From positions 1 to 18,560 of the forward strand of contig JAIQGG010000011.1 of the NCBI GenBank assembly GCA_020072785.1: DNA of 18,560 bases, read 5' to 3'. Origin of the DNA: Terriglobia bacterium. Lineage in GTDB: Bacteria; Acidobacteriota; Terriglobia; Acidiferrales; UBA7541. The position numbers and the translations under genes are program-made. Each line of letters begins with the position of its first letter. The first letter of the stretch is position 1. The notes under the pieces were generated by a model that searched no databases, was not told the origin of the DNA, and saw only the letters and a program-made list of their open reading frames with translations. Positions 1,217-6,791 of the stretch are shown in pieces.

Positions 1217-2134
1217 TTACTTACAGGCGGATTCGGTCTGCTCGAAGGCGTGGTAGGAGGAGCGGACAAGGGGGCCAGCTTCGATGTGCTTGAAGCCCAT
1301 GGCTTCGCCGAGGATCTTGTATTCGGCGAATTCGTCGGGATGCAGGTAGCGGACGATGGGCAAGTGGTCGCGCGTTGGCTGGAGGTACTGGCCGAGGGTG
1401 AGGATGTCGGTGCCCTGCGCGGCGAGCTCCTGCAGGGTGTGCAGGACCTCCTGCTTTTCTTCGCCGAGGCCCAGCATCAGGCCGGTCTTGGTGGGGATCT
1501 CCGGGTGCAATTCCTTGGAGCGGCGCAGCAGTTCGAGGGAGCGCTCGTAGAGGGCGCCCTTGCGCACCTGGCGGTAGAGCCGCGGCACGGTCTCGGTATT
1601 GTGGTTGAGCACGTCGGGGCGCGCGGCGAGCACGACCTCCAGAGCATCCCAGTCACCGCGAAAATCGGGGATGAGCAGCTCGATCTTGCAGGCCGGAACG
1701 CGCCGGCGAATCTCCTGGATGGTGCGGGCGAAGATATGCGCGCCGCCGTCGGGCTGGTCGTCGCGGTTCACCGAAGTAACCACGGTGTAGCGCAGGCCCA
1801 TGCGCGCGGCGGCTTCGGCCACGCGGCGGGGCTCGTCCTCATCGGGCGGCCCGGCGGGCCTGCCGGAGGGCACGGCGCAGAAGCCGCAGGCGCGCGTGCA
1901 GATGTCGCCGAGGATCATGAAGGTGGCAGTGCGGTGCTCCCAGCACTCGCCCATGTTGGGGCAGCGCGCGCTCTCGCAAACGGTGTTCAGCCCGAGCGTG
2001 CGCATGATGCCCTTGAGCTCCTGGTAGTTTTCCCCGCCCAGAAACTTCACGCGCAGCCAGTCCGGGCGCGGATGGGCTTGCGGGGAAGGAACGCCGGAGC
2101 CGGGCGAGTTAACGATGTGAAAGGGCGAGGTCAT
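1217..2134 (-). CDS. lipA: Lipoyl synthase
   Basis: Radical SAM enzyme that inserts two sulfurs into octanoyl groups on lipoyl domains of 2-oxoacid dehydrogenases and the glycine cleavage H protein. The 305 residues match family length. The auxiliary cluster ligands lie in [12 protein letters not shown] (Cys53, Cys58, Cys64). The radical SAM motif is CTRACGFC (Cys79, Cys83, Cys86). The C-terminal RSSYHA (291-296) supplies the conserved serine that ligates the auxiliary cluster. All key residues are present. The ATG at 2134 has no clear ribosome binding site, so the exact start is less certain than the identity. No lipB is adjacent. The gene stands apart and is convergent with the small membrane protein gene. 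Confidence 0.97.
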
Positions 2135-4486: not shown

Positions 4487-4858
4487 CTAGCGCGGCTGGC
4501 GGGAGACCAGGAGGAAATCGCGCAGCGCGGAGACGTTGGGGCCGTAGGCGCCGATGCGTCCGGCATCCACGGGCAGGCCGAGGCGCTCGGCTAGCTCCAG
4601 GTTGATCCCGGCATCGTCCAGCTCGGAGAGGCTGAAGCCCGCGGCGGGCTGCACGCGATGAATCCCCGTGGGATAGACGGGGCGCGGAGGCCGCATGTGC
4701 TTACCCGGGCGGCGCGCCGCTTCGTAGAAGAGGCGCCAGTCGCGTTTTTGCCAGGTGGTCATGGTCGCTTGCTCGGTACTGTCTTCCCCCCATTCGATGC
4801 CCGAAGCGTCCGGAAGGTTCGCTGCTATTTTCGCGTCGTTTTGTGGCCTGATCGGCAT
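4487..4858 (-). CDS. eL13-like protein (ribosomal protein L13e domain) in a bacterial context
   Basis: A 123-residue protein if started at ATG 4858. That ATG has AGGAG (4867-4871) 8 nt upstream and a promoter about 40 nt upstream. A second ATG at 4762 would give 91 residues without a good ribosome binding site. Residues ~70-115 read RVQPAAGFSLSELDDAG..., ...LAERLGLPVD...NVSALRDFL. This follows the eL13 pattern R-x-G-x-GFS-x-x-EL-x-x-AG-(I/L)-x-x-x-x-A-x-x-(I/L)G-(I/L)-x-VD-x-R...NV-x-x-L(K/R). The segment before it (WQKRDWRLFYEAARRPGKHMRPPRP) also recalls the eL13 N-terminus, with HxDWQRR and a basic proline-rich stretch. eL13 is a large-subunit protein of archaea and eukaryotes and is not part of the standard bacterial ribosome. 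A role in bacterial RNA or ribosome biology is plausible but unproven. The first ~32 residues match nothing I know. Confidence 0.72.
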   Translation of the reverse strand: MPIRPQNDAKIAANLPDASGIEWGEDSTEQATMTTWQKRDWRLFYEAARRPGKHMRPPRPVYPTGIHRVQPAAGFSLSELDDAGINLELAERLGLPVDAGRIGAYGPNVSALRDFLLVSRQPR

Positions 4859-4876
4859 AGCGCGTACTCCTGTATC

Positions 4877-4928
4877 CGTGACCGCAAAGCGGCCAACGAT
4901 ATGCGTGACCGCAAAGCGGTCAACATAT
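4877..4928. repeat. Two tandem palindrome-containing repeats
   Basis: Copy one (4877-4902) and copy two (4904-4928) share CGTGACCGCAAAGCGG, then CCAACGATAT or TCAACATAT, with a 27-bp period. Copy two contains a perfect palindrome GACCGC-AAA-GCGGTC; copy one has one mismatch in it. The repeats lie just upstream of the ribosome binding site of the eL13-like gene and overlap its predicted promoter. This is the layout expected of a dimeric repressor or activator with two operators. A dispersed intergenic repeat is the alternative. Confidence 0.75.
4896..4923 (-). promoter_or_regulatory. Probable promoter of the eL13-like gene
   Basis: On the minus strand, TTGACC (4918-4923) and TATCGT (4896-4901) are separated by 16 nt. 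Transcription would start near 4889, giving a leader of about 30 nt carrying AGGAG. The -35 element overlaps one palindromic repeat, and the other sits downstream of the -10. An alternative pair, TTGTTG and TATATG with 17 nt spacing, lies slightly upstream. Confidence 0.45.
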
Positions 4929-5057
4929 ACTGCAGAATCGGCCGGGCAACAACTATTCTTCGCGTACTGTTGCAAAGCCGTAACGAGGCGGCGCGCCCGG
5001 GGCGGACCCGGCCGCCGCTGCGGGGGCGAGGCAAACGAAGGGCCGTGCGCGCGCGGC

Positions 5058-5101: not shown

Positions 5102-6343
5102 ATGGCTGCCGCGAACATCGTCGTCCATTACCACGAGCTCTGGCTCAAAGGGGGGAACCGCGATTTCTTCCTGAGCAAGCTGCGCCTGGCCATGCGCCGG
5201 GCGCTGGACGGGCTGCGCATCGCGCGCATCACCGAGCCCGGCGACCGCTACGTCATCGAACTGCTGGACGAGGCCGAACTGCCGGAAACGCTGCGGCGGC
5301 TGGCGCGTGTTTCGGGGATCGCCAATCTGGCGGTGGCGCGCGCGGTGGAGCGCGACCTGGAAAATCCGCTCGGACCGCTGTGCGCCGCGGCCTGGGAAGA
5401 GGTCCGCAACGAATCCTTCGCCAGCTTCGCGGTGCGCGCCAAGCGCAGCGACAAGCGTTTCCCGATCAACGCCCTGACCATCGAGCGGGAAGTCGGCGGC
5501 TACCTGCACGACCAGTTGCAGGGCGCCGGACGCAGCTTCCGCGTGGACCTGCGCAATCCCGAACTCACCTGCCGCATCGAAATCACGCCGGGACCGGTGC
5601 TGGTCTATGCGCGGCGCATCCCCGGGGCGGGCGGCCTGCCGGCGAACACCGCGGGGCGGCTCACCTGCCTGCTCTCGGGCGGGTTCGATTCCTCGGTGGC
5701 GGCGTGGAAAATGATGAGGCGCGGCGCGCACGTCAACTTCGTGCATTTCTGGGGAGGCGGGGCGAAGCCGGGGGAGTCCTCGGTGCACGTGGCGCGCGAG
5801 CTGGTGAAGCGGCTGGTGCCATGGCAATTCACCGCCAAGCTGTACCTGGTACCCTTCGAGCCGCTGCAGCGCGAGATCATGCGGGAGGCGCCGGAGCAGT
5901 ACCGCATCCTGCTCTATCGCCGGCTGATGCTGCGCATTGCCGAGCGCGTGGCCCGCGGCGGGCGCTCCCTGGGCCTGGTGACCGGCGACAGCCTGGCCCA
6001 AGTGGCGTCGCAGACCCTGCAGAACATGGCCGCCGTCGGCGCCGCCACCCACATGCCGCTCTACCGCCCGCTGGTGGGCGACGACAAGCTGGAGATTCTG
6101 GAAATAGCCAAGAAGATCGGTACGCATGACATTTCCGCGGAGCCCTTTCACGACTGCTGCCCGGTGTTTCTGCCCAAGGCGCCGGCGCTGTTCGCCACGG
6201 CGCAGGAACTGGAGGCGGCCGAGGCCGCGCTGAATGTGGAGGAGATGGTACGCAGCGGGCTGCAGACGCTGAGCGTCGAACGCTACCGCTATACGCAAGG
6301 GCGCGTGATCCAGGTGGAATCGCTGCGAGAGGCTACTGCGTAG
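5102..6343 (+). CDS. thiI: tRNA 4-thiouridine synthetase ThiI
   Basis: ATP-dependent sulfur transferase that adenylates U8 of tRNA to make 4-thiouridine; in some bacteria it also supplies sulfur for thiamine thiazole synthesis. At 413 residues it has an N-terminal ferredoxin-like and THUMP region (~1-170), then a PP-loop ATPase domain with SGGFDS (192-197). DCCPVFLPKAP (351-361) holds the acceptor cysteine, and the sequence here resembles the short Bacillus-type enzyme. There is no C-terminal rhodanese domain, unlike E. coli ThiI, so sulfur must come from a separate cysteine desulfurase or rhodanese. SSVA replaces the usual SPVA after the PP-loop. The ATG at 5102 has only a weak ribosome binding site. 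The gene stands alone. Confidence 0.96.
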   Translation: MAAANIVVHYHELWLKGGNRDFFLSKLRLAMRRALDGLRIARITEPGDRYVIELLDEAELPETLRRLARVSGIANLAVARAVERDLENPLGPLCAAAWEEVRNESFASFAVRAKRSDKRFPINALTIEREVGGYLHDQLQGAGRSFRVDLRNPELTCRIEITPGPVLVYARRIPGAGGLPANTAGRLTCLLSGGFDSSVAAWKMMRRGAHVNFVHFWGGGAKPGESSVHVARELVKRLVPWQFTAKLYLVPFEPLQREIMREAPEQYRILLYRRLMLRIAERVARGGRSLGLVTGDSLAQVASQTLQNMAAVGAATHMPLYRPLVGDDKLEILEIAKKIGTHDISAEPFHDCCPVFLPKAPALFATAQELEAAEAALNVEEMVRSGLQTLSVERYRYTQGRVIQVESLREATA

Positions 6344-6407: not shown

Positions 6408-6791
6408 TTACCAGCGGTTGCCGCGATCGCCGCGGTCGCCGCGATCTCCGCCGCGCCCGCGTCCGCCGCCGCCACCGCCGCCATGCCCGCGCCCGCCGCC
6501 GCCGCCGCCGAAGCCGCGTCCGCCGCCGCCACCGCCACGCTCGGTCTGCGGCCGGGCTTCGTTGACAACGAGGTTGCGCCCGCCGAAGTTCTGGCCGTTG
6601 AGCGACTGCACGGCGCGATCGGCTTCTTCATCGTTGGCAATTTCCACGAACGCAAAGCCGCGCGACTGTCCCGTGAAACGGTCGCGAATGAGATTGATGG
6701 CTGAGGGATTGCAGCCTGCCTGCGTGAACCACTCTTGAAGCTGCTCCTCCGTTGCGGTAAACGGAAGATTTCCGATATAGAGCTTCTTCAC
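6408..6791 (-). CDS. Glycine-rich RRM RNA-binding protein
   Basis: A 127-residue protein with one RNA recognition motif (1-80) and a glycine/arginine-rich tail (85-127). RNP2 is LYIGNL (4-9) and RNP1 is RGFAFVEI (44-51); the aromatic residues that stack on RNA bases are present. The tail alternates GGGGGG with RG and RGG, then GDRGDRGDRGNRW. The GTG start at 6791 is supported by AAGGAG (6799-6804) seven bases upstream. Such RRM-Gly proteins occur in cyanobacteria and several other phyla and resemble plant glycine-rich proteins; in cyanobacteria some are cold-induced. They bind single-stranded RNA and probably act as RNA chaperones. RGG-type tails can drive condensation, but that is not shown here. 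The gene is divergent from the acyl-CoA synthetase. Confidence 0.95.
   Translation of the reverse strand: MKKLYIGNLPFTATEEQLQEWFTQAGCNPSAINLIRDRFTGQSRGFAFVEIANDEEADRAVQSLNGQNFGGRNLVVNEARPQTERGGGGGGRGFGGGGGGRGHGGGGGGGRGRGGDRGDRGDRGNRW

Follow-up and report, generated by a model that had tools for sequence, protein, structure and literature searches.

The window, by which we mean the whole 18,560-nt stretch of DNA that was analyzed, carries on its minus strand a gene for an eL13-like protein of 91 aa (4487..4762, with the ATG at 4762 and the stop codon at 4487-4489). The gene comprises a basic N-terminal arm (residues 1-41; 4640..4762, minus strand) and a core eL13-type domain, GFSLSELDDAGINLELAERLGLPVDAGRIGAYGPNVSALRDFL (residues 42-84; 4511..4639, minus strand), and it sits outside any ribosomal protein operon. 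The initial annotation had proposed a coding ORF spanning 4487-4858. This ORF is real on the minus strand, the plus strand of the same interval being broken by an internal stop, but its start at 4858 was rejected in favor of ATG 4762 because nothing is conserved upstream of M33 of the longer ORF. When related loci were compared, a start equivalent to M33 was common to the relatives' proteins, the more divergent of which open with MW.RRDW. The in-frame upstream extension (4763..4858, minus strand) is unconserved in relatives and under little constraint, with a dN/dS of about 0.55, compared with about 0.1 for the gene, in the single pair that could be aligned. Residues 1-32 of the 4858-start ORF thus probably lie outside the gene, and 4763..4858 is probably 5' untranslated sequence.

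Neighboring genes and the upstream region

Three neighbors recur around the gene. The thiI gene (5102..6343, plus strand; PF02568, E 9e-56) is its divergent neighbor in most genera, a gene for an RRM-type RNA-binding protein (6408..6791, minus strand; PF00076, E 1e-20) is likewise conserved nearby, and lipA (1217..2134, minus strand) often flanks the gene on its opposite side in genomes of the same genus. Within the window's genus, most genomes have lost thiI and retained the eL13-like gene, which argues that the latter has a function of its own and is not functionally bound to thiI. We rejected a functional tie between the two, given that the gene occurs without thiI in this genus and thiI without the gene in genus g216.

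Some 100-250 nt ahead of the ATG lies a block that is conserved among the relatives compared, including those without thiI. In the window it lies at approximately 4922..5015 on the minus strand (CGTTACG..., TTGCAACA..., GTATAT) and is probably the promoter region. At 4873..4924 (no strand assigned), the palindrome GTGACCGCAAAGCGGTCAAC is present as two 25-nt copies 27 nt apart. It probably lies behind the 'own regulated promoter' proposed in the initial annotation, which has only weak support: conservation of a short upstream block speaks for it, but the palindrome is dispersed through the genome. The sequence TTGACCGCNNNGCGGTCA has 193 exact copies genome-wide (G000), compared with 0 for a control pattern, and a gene-specific operator was rejected because the palindrome belongs to this 193-copy family. 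The repeat is often arranged in tandem at 27-nt spacing, and is either a REP-like element or a global binding site.

Similarity to archaeal and eukaryotic eL13

An eL13 signature in the C-terminal part of the protein had been noted from the sequence, and it is borne out by NCBIfam, PDB, shuffling and fold results. The 91-aa protein matches the NCBIfam archaeal L13e model NF008914/PRK12277 with an E-value of 4.7e-11 and 42.2 bits, under the equivalog cut-off of 96 bits (E 9.9e-11 for the longer ORF), and the same model matches 18/18 relatives. The L13e profile search proposed as a check was therefore significant, with no unrelated family preferred. Pfam L13e (PF01294) gave E-values of 1e-4 to 2e-4 at 21.8-22.6 bits, under its gathering score of 24.9. 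A search of the PDB returned crenarchaeal eL13 (9e6q), with E 8.6e-9 for the longer ORF alone and 9.8e-10 for the family profile, and residues 37-84 aligned with a eukaryotic eL13 profile in hhalign (E 1.2e-7, probability 94%). Against a small eL13 profile built from four archaeal/eukaryotic sequences the protein scored 33.4 bits, as against at most 14.3 bits for 20,000 shuffles and -1.9 bits for the reversed sequence. The shared pattern is a GFS...LG(L/I)xVD...NVxxL domain, and by these sequence comparisons residues ~24-84 are homologous to eL13.

Chance or convergent similarity would make the protein a member of an unrelated helical family that happens to share the common GFSxxELxxAG helix cap. 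This motif makes archaeal eL13 match DotG decapeptide repeats, and PF25296 (Decapeptide) appears here, though as no more than a weak match. The similarity to eL13, however, spans about 60 residues through LGLPVDxxR and NVxxLR, it exceeds that of 20,000/20,000 shuffles, and the 50 structure matches listed in each of two rankings are all eL13, so that we consider such an origin very improbable.

The structural rankings come from an AlphaFold2 model of medium confidence (mean pLDDT 76.9; the five models were uneven and ranged from 76.9 to 45.0). The predicted elements are a helix at residues 6-16, a beta hairpin at 29-39 and helices at 45-51, 55-61 and 76-87, the last three corresponding in order to H2-H3-H4 of eL13. 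Among the structure matches listed, the top 50 from Foldseek and the top 50 from VIA-align are eL13 chains throughout, with Pyrobaculum eL13 ranked first (Z 8.3, rmsd 2.2 A over 67 residues; 39-40% identity over 67-69 residues). Superposition of a predicted structure on eL13, also proposed at the outset, hence points the same way as the profiles, with an eL13-like fold predicted for the window protein.

Support for homology does not extend over the whole arm, which carries the predicted helix 6-16, an RPPRP stretch and the hairpin 29-39. Its residues 24-41 align with archaeal eL13, and residues 1-23 have no significant alignment. The predicted N-terminal helix is placed like H1 of eukaryotic eL13, and structural alignments begin at residue 15-24. 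The earlier impression that the N-terminal half also recalls eL13 lacked statistical support (hhalign E 0.074), and the same holds for homology to H1. The arm (residues 1-41) is strongly positive, with a net charge of +7 and a pI of 11.6 (overall range +5 to +7, pI about 11.5), and the domain is mildly acidic.

Human eL13 is built in the order helix H1, beta hairpin B1, H2, H3, H4, long loop and H7, and contacts 28S rRNA via H1, hairpin B1 and H7 (PMC10665555). The predicted order in the window protein, helix, hairpin, two helices, helix, equals human H1-B1-H2-H3-H4 and ends at H4; its chain stops 7 residues past the domain and so has no C-terminal H7 as in human eL13. The window protein is thus a partial eL13 in which the mid loop and the rRNA-binding C-terminal helix are absent. 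Compared with eukaryotic eL13 (RPL13, PF01294), whose elements follow the same order as those predicted here, it lacks the mid loop and H7 that bind expansion segments ES7L/ES9L there, and its domain is acidic where the eukaryotic one is basic, most of the eukaryotic basic residues having gone (VDxRR has become VDAGR). Archaeal eL13, as in the Pyrobaculum calidifontis 50S subunit (PDB 9e6q chain AH), has the same GFS-helix-helix-LGLPVD-R-NVxxLR-helix domain with the preceding hairpin, and its domain is near neutral. The window protein differs from it in being bacterial, in having an extra 23-residue N-terminal arm with a predicted helix, and in missing the second half of the 157-aa Pyrobaculum chain.

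Distribution, selection and 23S rRNA in the family

By a class-wide profile search, the gene is present in 77/89 genomes of the window's family (Acidobacteriota Gp2 / Acidoferrales-type) and in 12/13 of its genera. It is essentially single copy, the exception being G481 with a second, broken copy. A dN/dS of about 0.02-0.2, comparable to that of lipA, indicates strong purifying selection, and mean column identity over arm and domain is 82%. The 37 named relatives are all Acidobacteriota MAGs, labeled Gp2, Ca. Acidiferrum typicum, Acidoferrales, Terriglobia or plain Acidobacteria, and viral contigs and plasmids yielded no relatives. Two further matches were treated as chance, namely the sole other one in the class (G580; marginal at E 6e-4, in an 844-aa frame) and one in G384 (33% over residues 6-71, containing a stop).

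Twelve of the 89 family genomes lack the gene. In G469 and G599 a contig ends where the gene would be expected, several other assemblies are incomplete, and the genus g216 (n=5) is without it in 5/5 genomes, in which thiI is kept with another ORF beside it. In a 23S tree, g216 is sister to the four other members of the family that were sampled, so that either a gain after the g216 split or a loss in g216 would be possible. The slot divergent from thiI in g216 holds a different conserved small ORF of about 92-106 aa (L166-L168; L167:2580-2900, minus strand), which looks HTH-like by eye and has no Pfam match.

It had been suggested that the gene reflects an old transfer or, alternatively, the recruitment of an RNA-binding module. 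That 12/13 genera have it at a conserved position speaks for a single old acquisition with vertical inheritance thereafter, and both ideas are plausible. A domain tree of about 50 columns is too weak to name a donor or decide descent; we infer transfer in preference to some other origin of the gene.

We located 23S genes by a conserved 23S pattern, and found no insertion tracking presence of the gene in a comparison that included only two complete 23S sequences from g216. A 10-nt difference near E. coli 1141-1200 was rejected as a marker because it does not separate genomes with the gene from those without. The survey also turned up 23S genes interrupted by some 560-630 nt at about E. coli position 1923-1931 (L120 and L119, from G523 and G502; L130, from G481), the inserts possibly being group I introns. 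The 23S of G481 looks foreign to the family in the 23S tree, and in G555 (C8 and C65) the 3' pattern recurs at exactly 3589-nt spacing on two contigs, as tandem copies or an assembly artefact.

Other bacterial L13e domains and possible roles of the protein

We searched 396 Acidobacteriota with the archaeal L13e model and found that in other families the L13e-type domain forms the C-terminal tail of proteins of 700-1400 aa (L181:755-3163, L182:5327-7453, L183:3630-7703, L184:7805-11695 and L185:7245-11471, with others at L175, L176 and L178). A gene for a DruE-like helicase, of the DEAD type, comes next in 8/8 tail loci, beginning at or near the stop of the tail, and these loci are Druantia-like. 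Two tails pass the Pfam PF01294 gathering score (28.9 and 38.6 bits), and in genus g76 the tailed protein also has sigma-70 regions 2-4. In L185, the region beyond the tail and its DruE-like partner (L185:11211-14384) contains ORFs that resemble ZorA- and ZorB-type genes by eye, which suggests a putative defence island. The Druantia literature examined does not mention L13e. Separately, G009 (L002/L089), which lies outside the window's class, has an 83-aa stand-alone L13e-like protein (L002:1450-1698) encoded behind a FAD-binding (CoxM-like) gene; the protein is sporadic in its order.

The tails at loci L181-L185 resemble the window protein in that a PF01294-type domain occurs in a bacterium, but they belong to large proteins of defence-like loci, whereas the window gene is a stand-alone core gene. 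One could nevertheless suppose that the tail of a defence protein associated with DruE was domesticated to give the window protein, which would have an antiphage or DNA-related role. Domain and phylum are shared, and the G392 and G256 tails outscore the window protein on the L13e model. Set against this, the gene is family-wide and vertically kept among housekeeping neighbors (lipA, thiI, RRM), so that the locus does not qualify as Druantia-type; the protein has no PADLOC match, no relative of it was found among viral contigs and plasmids, and it is not grouped with the tails in the weak domain tree. We regard a descent of this kind as improbable.

As far as their sequences tell, the tails do show that the L13e domain can serve non-ribosomal roles in bacteria, and they support the main alternative for the window protein, in which the eL13 domain would have been recruited as a stand-alone module for a non-ribosomal target, which could be a protein or an RNA of regulatory or tRNA-related kind. 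There is a precedent in YbxF/OapC of the Bacillota, likewise a small bacterial protein from a family (L7Ae) of archaeal/eukaryotic ribosomal proteins, put to other bacterial RNAs, namely kink turns and OLE RNA (PMC9723947). The L7Ae fold is unrelated to eL13, and YbxF/OapC has a known RNA partner, whereas RNA binding by the window protein is suggested by charge and fold. The RNA-related neighbors (thiI, RRM) and the acidic domain surface, unlike that of eukaryotic eL13, also agree with recruitment. Neither neighbor is obligatory, however, thiI having been lost in most of the window's genus, so that no partner is indicated, and conservation extends over both arm and domain, as expected of a large fixed binding surface, though other partners could suffice. 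Recruitment thus represents a substantial possibility, if one short of an even chance.

The explanation that we favor, and to which we give an even chance, is that the gene encodes a lineage-specific accessory protein whose basic N-terminal arm would attach it to the large ribosomal subunit. A lineage possessing an eL13-type protein would have supplied the gene once, early in the history of the acidobacterial family, and vertical inheritance would have maintained it since. The arm, with its predicted helix, Pro/Arg stretch and hairpin, would run along 23S rRNA, which we infer to be the likeliest RNA for it to bind, and the compact three-helix domain may dock beside it like the N-terminal half of eL13. 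Association with the 50S subunit is favored because eL13 is the one family indicated by sequence and fold alike, because the order of predicted elements equals that of the human protein up to H4, and because positive charge is concentrated in the arm, the near-neutral Pyrobaculum domain being comparable in this respect. It is favored further by the single-copy occurrence of the gene in most of the family under purifying selection, with or without thiI, and by the existence in bacteria of lineage-specific ribosomal proteins missed by annotation: bL38/bS22 of Borrelia and bL38 of Flavobacterium are small and were unannotated until ribosomes were examined (PMC10618245). Those proteins are not relatives of eL13 and were demonstrated to be ribosome-bound, whereas the evidence on the window protein is entirely computational and its ribosome binding is proposed. 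Weakening the 50S association are the lack of a 23S insertion separating the compared genomes with and without the gene, the loss of most basic residues of eukaryotic eL13, the location outside a ribosomal protein operon, and the use of the domain elsewhere as a tail of large proteins. A broader reading, in which an eL13 fragment became a fixed 50S protein in one bacterial clade and the domain was separately adopted as a DruE-linked antiphage tail, we put forward tentatively and with some doubt.

Some bacterial L13e-domain proteins exist as database entries, which makes earlier 'L13e' annotation of single proteins likely. No functional description of a bacterial L13e was found in the full-text PMC literature, subscription papers being outside this scope. 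A 2011 survey counted zero bacterial members of PF01294 (PMC3056875), and L13e has been treated as archaeal and eukaryotic, with its origin placed in Cren-, Thaum- and Korarchaeota (PMC3353972). A group of soil Acidobacteria thus has a conserved single-copy core gene whose product is built around a piece of eL13, a ribosomal protein that elsewhere has been described from archaea and eukaryotes alone, which raises the question of whether a bacterial ribosome took up an archaeal-type protein late or whether the eL13 domain has an older, general binding role. If the broader reading above is true, this would be the first eL13 on a bacterial ribosome, and eL13 would serve bacteria as a mobile module that docks on ribosomes or RNA.
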